From an uncultured bacterium (lineage in GTDB: Bacteria > Verrucomicrobiota > Kiritimatiellia > CAIKKV01 > CAIYGI01), in the NCBI GenBank assembly GCA_903925685.1, contig CAIYGI010000330.1, positions 1 to 35,744 of the forward strand: DNA of 35,744 bases, given 5' to 3'. Position numbers and translations under genes: made by a program. Below, piece by piece: positions 2,894 to 34,858 of this stretch. The stretch's first letter is position 1. Every line of letters starts with the position of its first letter. Under the pieces are notes generated by a model that saw only the letters and a list, made by a program, of their open reading frames with translations, had not been told where the DNA came from and made no database searches.

Positions 2894-5416
2894 ATGAGAC
2901 TAAGCGCCGTGTCATACTGGGGGCGAGGGGCGTTCACGGCTTTATGCTTATGCGGCTGGATGGCAACCAAGCCCGCGTTCGGCGAAACGTTTCTGGTCAA
3001 GGAGGGACAGCCGCTGGCAAACATTGTGATTGCCGAAAAGCCGCCGCGGATGGTGAAGCTGGCGGCGAAAGAACTGCAGGCCTACATCGAAAAGATATCC
3101 GGCGCGAAACTGGCGATCACGAATGCGCCCGGAACGAGTGTGCCCGCCCACATCTACGTGGGCCGCAGCGCGGAAACCGACACGCTCAAGATCACGGACG
3201 AGGGTCTGAAGTACGGCGCGTTCAAGATGGTGTCCGGGGATAACTGGCTGGCGCTGGTGGGCCATGACAGCGACCACACGCCGCCGATGCCCTATGTTGG
3301 TAGCGGAGGAGCGGCTGCGATACCTGCATTTCTGAAGAGATGGGATGCGGATGTGGAGGCGCGGGCGCAACGTCAGGGGTTCAAATTGGAGGGCGAAAAA
3401 TGGTATTCGCCTTATGCCCGTGATATCTGGAAGGAATACAGCCAGGCGATGGGGATTCATGAAAAGGACGAGCGCGGCTCGCTCAACGCCGTGTACGCGT
3501 TCTTAAGGGACCAGGGCGTGCGCTGGTATATGCCCGGCGAGCTGGGCGAAATCGTTCCGAAAAACAAAAGCATCGAACTGCCATCCGTGGACAAGACCGT
3601 GCGGCCGGATTTCGCTATCCGCTCCTTTTACCAGTTCTATAAGGAATTTCTCGGCGCCAGCCGTGATGAAATCCTGTGGCAATTGCGTCTTGGGCTCAAT
3701 AAAGCCCCCGATCTGTTCGGTAACAGCTATGATGTGGGTATGGCCCATGGCATTGGAAATGTAATTGGTCGGGAGGAAACGAAACAGGCGCACCCGGAGT
3801 ACTATAAACTGGAGAACGGCAAACGGAAGAATGACAAGGAGATCGAGCCCTGTCTTTCCTCGCCGGGGCTTTTCGCATCGAACGTCAAGTATGTCCGCGC
3901 CCTTTTCGAACTTTACAACGAACCGACGGTCTCAGTCATGATGACCGACGGACTGGGTTCCATTTGCAGGTGTGAACTCTGCAAGGGGAAGGAAACGCTG
4001 GAGCGGGGGAATAATGGATTTGCCTCGGACTATATATGGGATTACGTCAACCGCATCGCCCGGGAGGTGTACAAGACAAATCCAGACAAAATGATTAGCT
4101 GTTTAGCCTATGGCGGCTACCGTCTGCCACCAAGCAACATCGATCAGCTGAGTCCCAATATCGTTGTCGGTCTCTGCCAGTGGCGATCGGATGCCTTCAA
4201 CGACTTTCTGCCCAAGAAAAAGGAGGAAACGATCCGCTTCCGCGAGGAATGGCTGAAGAAGATCCCGAAAGGGCACACGCCCTTTTTCATCTACGACAAC
4301 TACCGCTATGCCGTACCCGGTTTTCCGGGACAATTCAGCCCCGTCTATTTCCCCCATGCGATTGCCGCGGATCTGCGTTCACTCAAGGGGATTTCCCTGG
4401 GAGACTATATCGAGGTTTATCGGGAAAACCGGAAAGACCTGGAACCGGGCATGGGTGTCACCCATCTCAACCTGTATGTGACGACTCGGTTCTTGTGGGA
4501 TGCGGATCAGGATGTAGACAAGATGCTGAACGAATATTATACGCTCTTCTACGGGCCGGCAGCCGCGGAGATGAAGGCGTTTATTGAGTATAGTGAAGCC
4601 AATTTGATGTATATGAGCAAGAATATCGGCACGATCGAGCAGATCTTCGCATTGCTGAACAAGGCGCAAGCGAAGGTTGCGCCCGAGTCGCTGTACGCCA
4701 AACGGATCAAACTCATTGCCGACCATATACGCCCGATGAAGGATCTCCGTGCACAGCTCGCCAAGGGGCGCGGCCCCGTGCCCGAAGCGCGGGTCAGGGA
4801 CTGCGACGCGCAAGCGGCGACAAATCTCAAATTGGACGGCAAGCTGGATGACGCGTTCTGGCAGGGGCTTGAGTCTTACGAACTCAAGGAGGTGGCGACG
4901 GGGCGGCGGGCTTCCTGCGGAACCAGGTTCAGGATGGGCTATGCGGGCGACAACCTGTATATCGGCATTGAGTGCAAAGGCTCCTCCAAGACGGCGTTGA
5001 CCAACACCACGCCCCAGCGCGATAACAAGGCGATTACCGAGGGGGAGGACGTTGAGATCATGCTGGAGACCCAGAATCATTCCTATTATCACCTCGCCAT
5101 CAGCCCTGCCGGAGGGCTGCTGGATACCGATTTCAAAAATGGGAACACGCTCTGGTCTTCCAACGCGGAGCTTGCCACCCATATCGAAGGGGATTCCTGG
5201 AGCGTGGAGATTCGCCTTCCGATATTCCCCCCGACACAGGCGGACATTCTCCCCCTGCTCGGCGTGGCCGGAGACAAACCGAGCGAAACAGATCCGTGGT
5301 ATTTCAATGTCTGCCGCCATGCCGTCAATGAGAAAGGAGCGGAATTGTCTGCCTTTTCCCCGACAGGGGGCGGGTTCCAGGCTCCGAAGATGTTCGCGAG
5401 ACTGTATGTGAAATGA
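2894..5416 (+). CDS. Secreted DUF4838 domain protein with C-terminal CBM9-like domain
   Basis: N-terminal signal-like segment; ...AAKELQAYIEKISGAKLAI... (alpha-glucuronidase N-domain-like); DUF4838-type core (FYQFYKEFLGA...CRCELCKG...); C-terminal LDGKLDDAFWQG...FRMGYAGDNLYIGIEC resembles CBM9-like domains. Confidence 0.85.
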   Translation: MRLSAVSYWGRGAFTALCLCGWMATKPAFGETFLVKEGQPLANIVIAEKPPRMVKLAAKELQAYIEKISGAKLAITNAPGTSVPAHIYVGRSAETDTLKITDEGLKYGAFKMVSGDNWLALVGHDSDHTPPMPYVGSGGAAAIPAFLKRWDADVEARAQRQGFKLEGEKWYSPYARDIWKEYSQAMGIHEKDERGSLNAVYAFLRDQGVRWYMPGELGEIVPKNKSIELPSVDKTVRPDFAIRSFYQFYKEFLGASRDEILWQLRLGLNKAPDLFGNSYDVGMAHGIGNVIGREETKQAHPEYYKLENGKRKNDKEIEPCLSSPGLFASNVKYVRALFELYNEPTVSVMMTDGLGSICRCELCKGKETLERGNNGFASDYIWDYVNRIAREVYKTNPDKMISCLAYGGYRLPPSNIDQLSPNIVVGLCQWRSDAFNDFLPKKKEETIRFREEWLKKIPKGHTPFFIYDNYRYAVPGFPGQFSPVYFPHAIAADLRSLKGISLGDYIEVYRENRKDLEPGMGVTHLNLYVTTRFLWDADQDVDKMLNEYYTLFYGPAAAEMKAFIEYSEANLMYMSKNIGTIEQIFALLNKAQAKVAPESLYAKRIKLIADHIRPMKDLRAQLAKGRGPVPEARVRDCDAQAATNLKLDGKLDDAFWQGLESYELKEVATGRRASCGTRFRMGYAGDNLYIGIECKGSSKTALTNTTPQRDNKAITEGEDVEIMLETQNHSYYHLAISPAGGLLDTDFKNGNTLWSSNAELATHIEGDSWSVEIRLPIFPPTQADILPLLGVAGDKPSETDPWYFNVCRHAVNEKGAELSAFSPTGGGFQAPKMFARLYVK

Positions 5417-5502
5417 GTTTCCAACGAAGAGAATGTCGGGGTCAAAATAGTCATCCGCACGATCTTGCGGCTTCGCACCCGAATGAAGCACAGTCTGTTT
5501 GC

Positions 5503-5530
5503 CTAGGTTCGAGTCCTAGCCGGGCAACCA
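5503..5530 (+). tRNA. Isolated 3' tRNA fragment (T-arm, 3' acceptor strand, discriminator A, encoded CCA)
   Basis: CTAGG-TTCGAGT-CCTAG (5-bp stem, canonical 7-nt TTCRANY loop), then CCGGGCA-A-CCA. No matching 5' half (expected TGCCCGG plus D and anticodon arms) lies upstream. Confidence 0.7.
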
Positions 5531-29252: not shown

Positions 29253-29280
29253 TTCAGGGTTCAGGGTTCGGGGTTCAGGT
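29253..29280. repeat. Heptamer tandem repeat, 4 units (TTCAGGG/TTCAGGG/TTCGGGG/TTCAGGT)
   Basis: Direct reading: ttcagggttcagggttcggggttcaggt immediately 5' of the hisH start codon. Confidence 0.9.
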
Positions 29281-29368
29281 GCCCGCGCTTGGCTTGCATT
29301 ATGCCGGACACATTTCTATTGTACAAGCGCATCGGCGCGATCCCGCGGCCGCTGCGCAAGGGGGCTTT

Positions 29369-30745
29369 ATGAATCGTATTGCAGTTTGGTCCAGTTTGAC
29401 TCTTTTCATGCTGAGTTCGATATCCCTGGCGGGGCCGGCCATCGAAGCCGCCCGGCGGCACGATGTCGCCGCCCTCAAGGCCGCGATCGATGCCAGCCCG
29501 CGCGAGGCTGTTGCCGAACAAACTCCCGAAGGCGCCACGCCCCTTCATCTTTCCGCGGCCAATGGCGACATCGCCGTGGCCCGCCTGCTGCTCAAGCTCG
29601 GGGCTAACGTCAACGCCCGCACGACGAACGGCGTTACGCCGTTGCAGTGGGCGGCATTCCAGGGGCAAACAGAGATGGTGCGCTTTTTGCTGGAAAACGG
29701 CGCGGACGTCAATGCCGTCAACGACACGGGGTCTTCGACGCTGCTTTGGGCCGCCGCCAACACCAACACCGCCATGGCGCGCGCTTTGATCGAAGTCGGC
29801 GCGCGGGTCAACACCACCAACCAAAGCGGCAACACAGCCATGCACTGGGCCGCCAACGGCAACGCGGTCGAACTCATGCGCCTGCTGCTTAAGAACGGCG
29901 CCAACCCGTCCATCACCAACGCCGCCGGCAAAACTCCGCTCGATCTCGCGCGCCAATCCAACGCCCGCGATGCCGTTCGTCTCCTCACACCAAACCAACC
30001 AGGTTTCTTTGGGCGTCTCTTCGGTAGTTCCGACGATCCCGCGAAACCTGCGCCGATTCACCGCTCCGTCCCCAACGCCGTAGTCCCCGGAGCCGCGCCG
30101 CAAACCGCCGCTGCGTCCATATCCACGACGCCCGCTGTCGTGAATTCCATCGCGTCCAAGGCGCCTGTCGCAAACACGGCTTCCAATCCGCCACCGATGC
30201 TCGCCGCATCGAACGCGGCGCCGAAGGCTGTCATGCCGTCGCCACCGTCCGGCAGCGTGACGATTGTATTGAAAAAGGGCGGCACGTATGTCGGCACGCC
30301 CCTCAAATCCGGTGCGAAGGCGCAGGGAACGCTCACGGACCTGAATGGCGACCGTTATACCGGCGCCTGGCTGGGATACGAGCGTCATGGACAGGGCACG
30401 CAGGATTACGCCAGCGGCGAAGTTTATGCGGGCGCCTGGCAAAACAATCGGCGGGAAGGCTTCGGGGTTTGCACATACCCCAACCTCGACCGCTACGAAG
30501 GGCTTTGGCATGACGATCAGCGGACGGGCACGGGGACCAACGTGCTGGCGAACGGCGACCGTCTGGAAGGCATCTGGCATGCCGACCGCCTGGTGTACGG
30601 CAAGGGCGTCTGCCGCTACGCCGACGGCTCAAACTACACGGGGGAATGGCGCGCCGGTGTTCCCGACGGCGCGGGCGTCCTTACCCGCCCCGACGGCACC
30701 ATCACCAAAGGGCGTTGGAACAAGAACCGCTACGTTGGCCCATAA
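29369..30745 (+). CDS. Secreted ankyrin-repeat + MORN-repeat protein
   Basis: Signal-like MNRIAVWSSLTLFMLSSISLAGPA; ANK repeats (GVTPLQWAAFQGQTEMVRFLLENGADVNAVNDTG etc.); low-complexity A/P/S linker; MORN repeats (GDRYTGAWLGYERHGQGT, GEVYAGAWQNNRREGFGV, LDRYEGLWHDDQRTGTG, GSNYTGEWRAGVPDGAGV). Confidence 0.9.
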   Translation: MNRIAVWSSLTLFMLSSISLAGPAIEAARRHDVAALKAAIDASPREAVAEQTPEGATPLHLSAANGDIAVARLLLKLGANVNARTTNGVTPLQWAAFQGQTEMVRFLLENGADVNAVNDTGSSTLLWAAANTNTAMARALIEVGARVNTTNQSGNTAMHWAANGNAVELMRLLLKNGANPSITNAAGKTPLDLARQSNARDAVRLLTPNQPGFFGRLFGSSDDPAKPAPIHRSVPNAVVPGAAPQTAAASISTTPAVVNSIASKAPVANTASNPPPMLAASNAAPKAVMPSPPSGSVTIVLKKGGTYVGTPLKSGAKAQGTLTDLNGDRYTGAWLGYERHGQGTQDYASGEVYAGAWQNNRREGFGVCTYPNLDRYEGLWHDDQRTGTGTNVLANGDRLEGIWHADRLVYGKGVCRYADGSNYTGEWRAGVPDGAGVLTRPDGTITKGRWNKNRYVGP

Positions 30746-32533: not shown

Positions 32534-32651
32534 GTATCTCCGTATTGCCCTGCAAGGGTATGTAATATAGCAGAAAGCGCAAGAAATCCAAAGGAATCCT
32601 TTGCTTGGCGTCCTTGACCATCCATCCCGTTTCCGCCATACTTTTCAGCAT

Positions 32652-34097
32652 ATGAGTGATCTATCGCCTGACTTGTCCTGTCCGCGATTCCTGCTGGGGG
32701 TGCCGGTGTGCGATATCCCGTCGCCGGACACGGCGGCGTGGATGCTTGAGCAGATGAGCGGATCGTCGCCTGGTTTCGCAATGTCGCTGCCTGCAACCTG
32801 GCTGGCGCACGCCTGGAAACATGCGGCTTTTCAGGAAGTTCTGCGCGAGGCGCGTCTGGTCCTGCCGGATTCCAAATGGGTGTTGGGCATTTCAGGATAC
32901 TTCGGTCCGCGGATCATGCATGGCCACGCGCCGGTCGACGTTGCGCTGCAGGCGGCGGCGGCGGAGCAGGCCGGCGTGCGCGTCTATCTGCTGGCTCCAG
33001 AGGCCGGAATCGCTAGCGCCGCCGGAACCGAGCTGCAGAAGCGCTATCCGCGACTTGCGATCGCGGGAACAGGTGGATTGCCGCGCCCAGCCGCGGCTGC
33101 GGCGGACCAGGCGGCGCTGCTGGCGTCGATCGCCGCCGCGAAGCCGGGGCTCGTGCTGGCGGACTTGAAAAACGCCGGGCATGCCGTTTGGCTGCGGGAA
33201 AGCGTGGCGCATTGGTCGGTCCCACTGGCGCTCGGGCTCGATGGTGGACTGGCCGAACTACAACCCAGGCATTGGTATGACCGGTACCTGCCCACGGTCG
33301 CCATGGCCAGGGCGGTGACGTCGCTCATGCGAAACGAGCGCTTCGCGTTGGCCGCGGCCGGGGCGCTGCTGCTGCTGCGCAAGGCCAGGCAGGCGCGGCG
33401 CGATGCAGGCGAAGAACCCGTGGCGCCGCCCGAACCAAACACGCTCACCGGACTTCCCGCCACGCTGGCGGTGTTCCAGCGTCTGCCCGATGAGCAGACG
33501 GCGCAAGACTGTCTGAGCGAACTGGGCGCCCAAGCCAGGCTGGGCGCGCTGATTCTGGACATGCATGCGTGCCCCTGGCTGGACAGCAGGGAGCTCGGTG
33601 TCCTCGTGGCACTGGCAAACCAGTGTCGACGGCGCCAGGCGCGGTTGTTTCTGTGCAACACAAGCGCCGCCGTGGCGCGACTGGTCGAAGCCTCGCGCCT
33701 GGAAACCGAACTGACGATTCCGGCTTCCAGCGATGTCATGCTCACCGACCTGCGACGCCGGCGCGAAACCGATGCGCTGGGCGTGGCCTCAGCGCAGGGC
33801 GACACTGTGCTGGTCACCCTGCCGGCGGAGTTGACCGTGGCCAGTCTGGAGTTTTTCCGGGCGCGGGTCTCGGCCGTCTGGAGCGACCAGTTGCGCGCGG
33901 GCACATTGCGGCAACTCCATGTTGACGCGTCGCGCCTGACCTTCATGGATAGCGCGGCGATGGGCTATCTGCTGTATCTGCGGAAGATCACGGTGGCCGC
34001 CGGCGTGACGATCCAGTTCGACGGATTCCATGGCGTCGCCAAGCAGTCGCTGAAACTGGCGCGCTTGGAGCAGTTGTTCAAGGAAGGCTCCGAGTAA
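32652..34097 (+). CDS. Divergent WecG/TagA/CpsF glycosyltransferase domain fused to two STAS-like domains
   Basis: N-terminal WecG-like pattern (FLLGVPVCDIPSPDTAAWML...REARLVLPDSKWVLGISGYFGPRI...GVRVYLLAPEAGIASAAGTELQKRYPRLAIAGTGG); C-terminal STAS-like LGALILDMHACPWLDSRELGVLVALANQCRRRQARLFLCNTSAAVARLVEASRLE and LHVDASRLTFMDSAAMGYLLYLRKITVAAGVTIQFDGFHGVAKQSLKLARLEQLF. Confidence 0.78.
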   Translation: MSDLSPDLSCPRFLLGVPVCDIPSPDTAAWMLEQMSGSSPGFAMSLPATWLAHAWKHAAFQEVLREARLVLPDSKWVLGISGYFGPRIMHGHAPVDVALQAAAAEQAGVRVYLLAPEAGIASAAGTELQKRYPRLAIAGTGGLPRPAAAAADQAALLASIAAAKPGLVLADLKNAGHAVWLRESVAHWSVPLALGLDGGLAELQPRHWYDRYLPTVAMARAVTSLMRNERFALAAAGALLLLRKARQARRDAGEEPVAPPEPNTLTGLPATLAVFQRLPDEQTAQDCLSELGAQARLGALILDMHACPWLDSRELGVLVALANQCRRRQARLFLCNTSAAVARLVEASRLETELTIPASSDVMLTDLRRRRETDALGVASAQGDTVLVTLPAELTVASLEFFRARVSAVWSDQLRAGTLRQLHVDASRLTFMDSAAMGYLLYLRKITVAAGVTIQFDGFHGVAKQSLKLARLEQLFKEGSE

Positions 34098-34858
34098 TGC
34101 GCCGCGCCGCGCTTATACTGCTCTTGTCGCTGGCGGCGGGTTGCGCCACCCCGCGCCACGGCGAGCTCTATCAGGTTTCCACCATCGACGCGCTGCTGGC
34201 CGGCGTCTACGACGGCGAGGTGACCTTCGGCGAACTTATGCGTCACGGCGATTTCGGCATCGGCACCTTCGACGCCCTTGGCGGCGAGATGGTCGCCGTG
34301 GATGGCCGCGCCTATGATGTCCGTTTTGACGGTCATGTCGTGCCGGTCGCCCCGGCGCGCCGCACGCCTTTTGCGGCGGTGACGTTCTTCGACCAAACCC
34401 GGACCACGCCTGCCCTGAGTGTCACCAACATCGCGCAATTCGCCGCGTTGCTCGACACGAAACTGACCGCAACCAATCAGCCGTACGCGGTGCGACTCGA
34501 CGGGGTTTTCGCTTACGTGCGGACGCGTAGCGTTCCGCCGCAGCGCCATCCCTACCCGCCGCTGGCCGAGGTGGCCAAGTCGCAAGCCGTCTTCGAATTC
34601 CGCAATGTCCGCGGCACGCTGGTGGGATTCCGGTGTCCGGCATGGCTGAAAGGACTGAACGTGACCGGCTACCATCTGCACTTCCTGACGGCAGACCGCA
34701 CCGCTGGAGGCCATGTGCTGGACATCGCTTTCTCGGACCTGCCCGTAAGCATTGACGCCTGCCACACATTGACCGTCGAACTGCCCCGCGTGGGCGATTT
34801 CGGCGCGGTCAATCTTACGCGTGATCGCGGCCGCGAATTGGAACAAGTCGAGAAGTAG
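34097..34858 (+). CDS. Alpha-acetolactate decarboxylase family protein with lipoprotein signal
   Basis: LSLAAGCAT lipobox; LYQVSTIDALLAGVYDGEVTFGELMRHGDFGIGTFDALGGEMVAVDGRAYDVRFDGHVVPV...TPFAAVTFF...GYHLHFLTADRTAGGHVLD (HxH...H metal-ligand pattern). Confidence 0.88.
   Translation: MRRAALILLLSLAAGCATPRHGELYQVSTIDALLAGVYDGEVTFGELMRHGDFGIGTFDALGGEMVAVDGRAYDVRFDGHVVPVAPARRTPFAAVTFFDQTRTTPALSVTNIAQFAALLDTKLTATNQPYAVRLDGVFAYVRTRSVPPQRHPYPPLAEVAKSQAVFEFRNVRGTLVGFRCPAWLKGLNVTGYHLHFLTADRTAGGHVLDIAFSDLPVSIDACHTLTVELPRVGDFGAVNLTRDRGRELEQVEK

Follow-up and report, generated by a model that had tools for sequence, protein, structure and literature searches.

Two STAS domains fused to a degenerate WecG/TagA-like glycosyltransferase domain: a candidate target of partner switching in Kiritimatiellia

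Switches of the HsbR/SypE type are already known to control biofilm polysaccharide. The HptB-HsbR-HsbA(-HsbD) system of Pseudomonas aeruginosa comprises an Hpt protein, a receiver-PP2C-kinase protein and a STAS protein (PMC6482189). In Vibrio fischeri, the response regulator SypE, whose outputs are a Ser-kinase and a phosphatase, targets a serine of the STAS protein SypA and controls a polysaccharide biofilm; how the STAS output SypA acts is unknown (PMC4517449). A regulatory role for a glycosyltransferase has been described for EpsE of Bacillus subtilis, a polysaccharide-locus enzyme that doubles as a flagellar clutch (PMC3000366). In the WecG/TagA/CpsF family, TagA has the conserved pocket residues Thr37, Asn39, Asp65, Arg83, Gln167 and Glu168, of which Asp65 is the general base, and its C-terminal appendage is essential, TagA without it being inactive (PMC6493773, Kattke et al.).

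Here we describe a gene in which a domain of this family is joined to two STAS domains, a combination for which a search of an open-access library found no paper. The gene lies in the window, that is, the whole 35,744-nucleotide stretch of DNA analysed, which is contig C330 of genome G000 (4.12 Mb, 347 contigs, 96% complete). We consider it probable that its product serves a phosphorelay-driven partner switch as a pseudo-glycosyltransferase output protein and that it was ancestrally a STAS-controlled polysaccharide transferase.

The fusion protein and its relatives

The fusion gene occupies positions 32652-34097 of the + strand, on which the domains and motifs given below and the adjoining acetolactate decarboxylase gene also lie; it begins with ATG at 32652, its stop codon ends at 34097, and the frame encodes 481 uninterrupted amino acids. 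An upstream TTG at 32601 is a possible alternative start, but homology and the ATG of the sibling species favour 32652. The original prediction had read, by eye, a WecG/TagA-like N-terminus and two STAS domains in this single frame, and Pfam bears this out with three models above their gathering scores: PF03808 Glyco_tran_WecG (7.1e-11, residues 67-196, 42.6 bits versus a gathering score of 27.4, a partial match to profile positions 1-128 of 168), PF01740 STAS (6.2e-19, 68.2 bits, residues 284-356) and PF13466 STAS_2 (1.1e-11, residues 388-472). The NCBIfam model TIGR00377 for anti-sigma factor antagonists scored 67.2 bits against a cut-off of 53.45, and the WecG superfamily model TIGR00696 scored 23.2 bits, under its cut-off of 69, an early sign of a degenerate transferase.

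Pfam, profile and alignment evidence together place the WecG/TagA-like domain at about residues 12-200 (32685-33251). Pfam and alignment place the first STAS domain at about residues 281-360 (33492-33731) with the putative phospho-acceptor S312, and the second at about residues 382-481 (33795-34094) with the putative phospho-acceptor S434; the second is identical to that of the sibling species at 99 of 100 residues. TagA crystal structures match residues 52-141 of the window protein directly (1.3e-4), and a 15-member family profile matches TagA structures at 4.7e-51 and STAS structures of the SpoIIAA/TM1442 type at 1e-8 to 3e-10. Because a two-sequence AlphaFold model of the fusion reached a mean pLDDT of only 39, the case for a retained fold rests on these profile matches and on the conserved core residues.

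The next gene (34097-34858; ORF and Pfam) encodes an acetolactate decarboxylase with a lipoprotein-like N-terminus (LLLSLAAGC). Its start overlaps the stop of the fusion (TAATG), and the sibling keeps the overlap with GTG and TGA; the two genes are likely co-translated. Elsewhere, the window encodes a protein in which MORN repeats follow ankyrin repeats (29279-30745) and an 840-aa DUF4838 protein (2894-5416).

The sibling, a metagenome-assembled genome of the same genus (G146; JANYBP010000093.1, with the match on contig C57), encodes the same protein of 482 aa, which is 89% identical to the window fusion with a single one-residue gap and no stop; these two genomes are the whole sample of the genus. 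A search of related genomes for the same architecture, which had been suggested as a check, recovered full-length WecG-STAS-STAS proteins in about 20 genomes of the class, drawn from 390 genomes of the phylum and from the order, with roughly 22-32% identity to the window fusion. Related forms with a single STAS domain are also present in these sets. In the alignment of the family (A1), all 15 proteins match all three Pfam models. Other arrangements occur in class relatives: two tandem WecG domains are found in reading frames L080, L081, L090 and L094 (genomes G035, G012, G119 and G088; 531-869 aa). Two longer fusions of about 860 aa (L060:2524-5124 and L054:8694-11276) were also seen; the former has an N-terminal segment that by eye resembles a family-2 glycosyltransferase, followed by WecG and STAS, and the latter has an extended N-terminus.

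Loss of the transferase active site in the window genus

The DG and PkQE hallmarks had been noted as altered in the original prediction, and comparison with TagA showed the changes to be real and more extensive. In TagA numbering, nearly all relatives keep T, N, D, G66, R and Q in the pocket, the exceptions being P for R83 in L055 and L063, D for N39 in L055, and D for E168 in several. In the window and sibling proteins, the positions T37/N39/D65/G66/R83/Q167 read S/P/D/S/G/H, and E168 has become A. The TxN motif (T37, N39) aligns with residues 44-48, MSLPA, here with S45 and P47 (32781-32795; PMC6493773), the PDG motif with residues 72-74, PDS (32865-32873), and the FGAPKQEK motif with residues 171-179, DLKNAGHAV (33162-33188). 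Motif by motif, DG has become DS, PKQE AGHA, TxN SLP, and the R of RVTGSD G. Thirteen residues of the C-terminal appendage (RAP...LEW...R) are missing from both proteins, and the counterpart of R221 gave no reliable alignment. Among the listed pocket residues, only the catalytic-base Asp survives (D73, equivalent to TagA D65), a retention that had gone unstated before.

Judged by its residues, the window protein lacks the conserved pocket and the complete appendage of an active WecG/TagA/CpsF enzyme; its transferase domain has lost residues on the donor and acceptor sides while keeping those of the fold core. A search of G000 and G146 for another PF03808 protein, which might represent an intact WecG copy hidden elsewhere, found none. 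We infer that catalysis has been lost, although with the Asp retained some activity may persist. A second fusion with a partly lost pocket is that of G158 (L055), with N39 changed to D, R83 changed to P and a shortened appendage; this loss is probably independent of that in the window genus.

The collapse is confined to the transferase domain, and the STAS domains diverge normally. Median pairwise identity of the transferase domain is 60.5% among 18 relatives versus 25.9% between the window protein and these relatives, whereas the corresponding values are 33.3% and 31.4% for the first STAS domain and 34.8% and 30.1% for the second. In the transferase-domain tree, which is dominated by the long branch of the genus, the genus stem measures 4.69 changes per site versus a median end branch of 0.2; in the weakly supported STAS tree it measures 2.32, inside the range of other long branches, and neither tree fixes where the window protein branches within the class. 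The fusion gene is nevertheless under purifying selection, extremely so in its second STAS domain: comparison of the window gene with that of the sibling gives dN/dS values of 0.285 for the transferase domain, 0.20 for the first STAS domain and 0.02 for the second, against 0.22 for the acetolactate decarboxylase gene and 0.27 for a neighbouring DUF480 gene. Low as they are and, in the transferase domain, similar to those of the neighbours, these values speak against a pseudogene. The C-terminal STAS domain is the most constrained part of the protein (p=5e-5 against the rest of the fusion). The putative phospho-acceptor S312 (LDS) is serine in 17 of 18 relatives and S434 (MDS) in all 18, and the window protein has both the profile match and the DS phospho-acceptor motif that characterize the STAS superfamily.

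The kept D73 and the purifying selection on the domain (dN/dS 0.285) could also indicate a re-tooled transferase, in which sugar transfer or cleavage would continue with an altered choice of donor or acceptor, by means of the retained Asp base and under STAS control as in the relatives. We regard this as unlikely: the Gly beside the Asp and the PKQE segment were lost together with the donor- and acceptor-side residues and part of the appendage, the locus is without polysaccharide genes (see below), and TagA deprived of its appendage is inactive (PMC6493773). It is also rather improbable that the domain is a decaying passenger, the N-terminal half drifting to loss and only the STAS pair mattering. 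Such decay would fit the very long branch and the identity of only 26% to relatives, both peculiar to this domain, as well as the far stronger constraint on the second STAS domain, but selection on the domain resembles that on neighbouring genes, there is no stop and only a single one-residue gap, and Pfam still recognises the transferase domain. In the reading that we prefer, that of a pseudo-glycosyltransferase output protein, the domain of the window genus would most likely serve as a scaffold or binding domain, because donor- and acceptor-side residues are lost and fold-core residues are kept, and the STAS pair, especially the second domain, would do the work.

A partner switch that accompanies the fusion

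The window genome encodes an HsbR/SypE-type gene set, comprising genes for a receiver-PP2C-GHKL kinase protein (hereafter the switch protein), an Hpt protein and a STAS protein. The trio lies on contig C334 (L110), with Hpt at 3178-3546, REC-SpoIIE(PP2C)-HATPase_c_2 at 3533-5188 and STAS at 5185-5523. In the sibling, the trio and the fusion are about 12 kb apart on one contig, and because the intervening gene order is common to both genomes, synteny indicates that C334 continues the window past its right end after a gap of roughly 1-2 kb. Kinases near the fusion had been proposed as something to look for, and a REC-PP2C-HATPase protein does share a neighbourhood with it in eight genomes: G146, G276, G390, G391, G309, G223, G158 and, by synteny, the window genome G000.

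In five of these neighbourhoods (G276, G391, G390, G309 and G223), the switch protein (about 37-49% identity) and the stand-alone STAS both have orthologues near the fusion. The same five also contain genes for a sugar transferase, a hexapeptide protein resembling a sugar-nucleotide transferase, an O-antigen ligase, and chain-length and export proteins, among which Bac_transf, Poly_export, Wzy_C and Hexapep were tested with Pfam and the others named by eye. In relatives of the order, the fusion and the switch both sit in exopolysaccharide clusters. At the fusion locus of the window genus, no polysaccharide genes were found. A genome-wide loss of polysaccharide synthesis can be rejected, because G000 and G146 have sugar transferase and export genes elsewhere. 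In G158 (L055:4136-12088), the fusion is flanked immediately on one side by the gene for a 1396-aa GAF hybrid histidine kinase, the two having overlapping ends, and on the other by a divergent gene encoding an Hpt-REC-PP2C-kinase protein; no adjoining polysaccharide genes were recognised.

The switch and the fusion co-occur well beyond these neighbourhoods. Among 17 genomes of the order, the switch is present in 5/5 genomes with the fusion versus 0/12 others, and in a class sample of 31 further genomes in 17/17 with the fusion versus 0/14 without. Across 390 genomes of the phylum, with cut-offs picked after viewing the lists (E <= 1e-14 for the fusion and E <= 1e-85 for the switch) and with single-STAS forms counted among the fusions, the switch occurs in 27/30 fusion genomes versus 5/360 others (nominal p=2e-33, the genomes being phylogenetically related). 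Five genomes thus have the switch without the fusion and three the fusion without the switch, so that the dependence of the fusion on the switch is not absolute. The agreement is more than mere linkage, since presence and absence match within genera and families (g4, g8, g9, g11, f2 and f12) and since the fusion and the switch lie far apart, at about 3.69 Mb and 0.50 Mb, in the single-contig genome G383. From co-occurrence and linkage together, we infer that the fusion is a candidate target of the HsbR/SypE-type switch.

That the STAS domains instead act in a classical anti-sigma/sigma switch, with the REC-PP2C-kinase protein unrelated and the co-occurrence due to shared ancestry only, seems to us very unlikely. 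The domains do match anti-anti-sigma models, the compared genomes are kin, and further HATPase_c_2 and SpoIIE proteins occur in the window genome, but presence and absence agree several times within genera and families, and also where the genes are unlinked. An artefact in which misassembly or a frameshift, the latter allowed for in the original prediction, fused a glycosyltransferase gene with a STAS gene is excluded for practical purposes: although each of the two genomes of the genus is fragmented, the protein is uninterrupted in both, and about 20 relatives, including the single-contig genome G383, carry the same architecture.

Proposed mechanism and comparison with known systems

Returning to the reading as a partner-switch output, we envisage an ancestral state, still found in most relatives, in which a WecG/TagA/CpsF-family transferase would act in exopolysaccharide assembly and its two C-terminal STAS domains would be read by an HsbR-type protein combining a receiver, a PP2C phosphatase and a GHKL Ser-kinase. 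This switch protein would be fed by the Hpt protein and have the stand-alone STAS as a partner. By analogy with the described switches, it should both add phosphate to STAS serines and take it off again: in one signalling state its kinase domain would bind the STAS domains and phosphorylate their conserved serines (S434 and S312 in the window protein), and phosphorelay input would turn on the PP2C domain, which would remove the phosphate. Dephosphorylation would then change the binding partner of the STAS module and thereby gate the attached domain. In the relatives, the controlled step would likely be WecG-type sugar transfer in exopolysaccharide assembly.

For the class as a whole, we lean, with some reserve, towards a glycosyltransferase family that is subject to partner switching by way of its two fused STAS domains, that in at least one genus has become a non-catalytic regulator still wired to an HsbR-like switch even though its locus is without polysaccharide genes, and in which G158 represents a partial and probably independent loss. 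The earlier alternative of a sensor/regulator or an enzyme under STAS control is thereby divided: the relatives look like STAS-controlled enzymes, and the window protein, its active site lost, is most likely a regulator. Similarly, the proposed link between surface polysaccharide and partner switching holds for the relatives of the order, with their fusions in polysaccharide clusters and the switch co-occurring almost perfectly, but appears historical in the window genus, where no polysaccharide gene stands beside the fusion. A STAS pair built into a glycosyltransferase would name a direct target of the switch, and two purified proteins would suffice to test its control. The window genus additionally offers a natural experiment in which enzyme activity is separable from signalling, one half being without an active site and the other kept.

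The N-terminal domain is homologous to TagA of Thermoanaerobacter italicus (GT26; PDB 5WB4, 7MPK), as judged from PF03808 and the family profile, and has the Asp base in common with it; the window protein differs in lacking the other active-site residues, in its shorter C-terminal appendage and in the two added STAS domains. EpsE is without STAS domains and is described as bifunctional and not as catalytically lost (PMC3000366). It may nevertheless serve, by analogy, as a precedent for the regulatory role that we propose for the transferase domain of the window genus. We take EpsE to belong to a glycosyltransferase family different from that of the fusion. SypA is a stand-alone STAS protein (PMC4517449), whereas here STAS and glycosyltransferase are parts of one polypeptide. 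Like HptB-HsbR-HsbA, the window genome has Hpt, REC-SpoIIE-HATPase_c_2 and STAS proteins of the same domain make-up; however, the STAS output of Pseudomonas binds FlgM or a diguanylate cyclase, whereas in the present case a (pseudo)glycosyltransferase carries two further STAS domains as part of the same chain.
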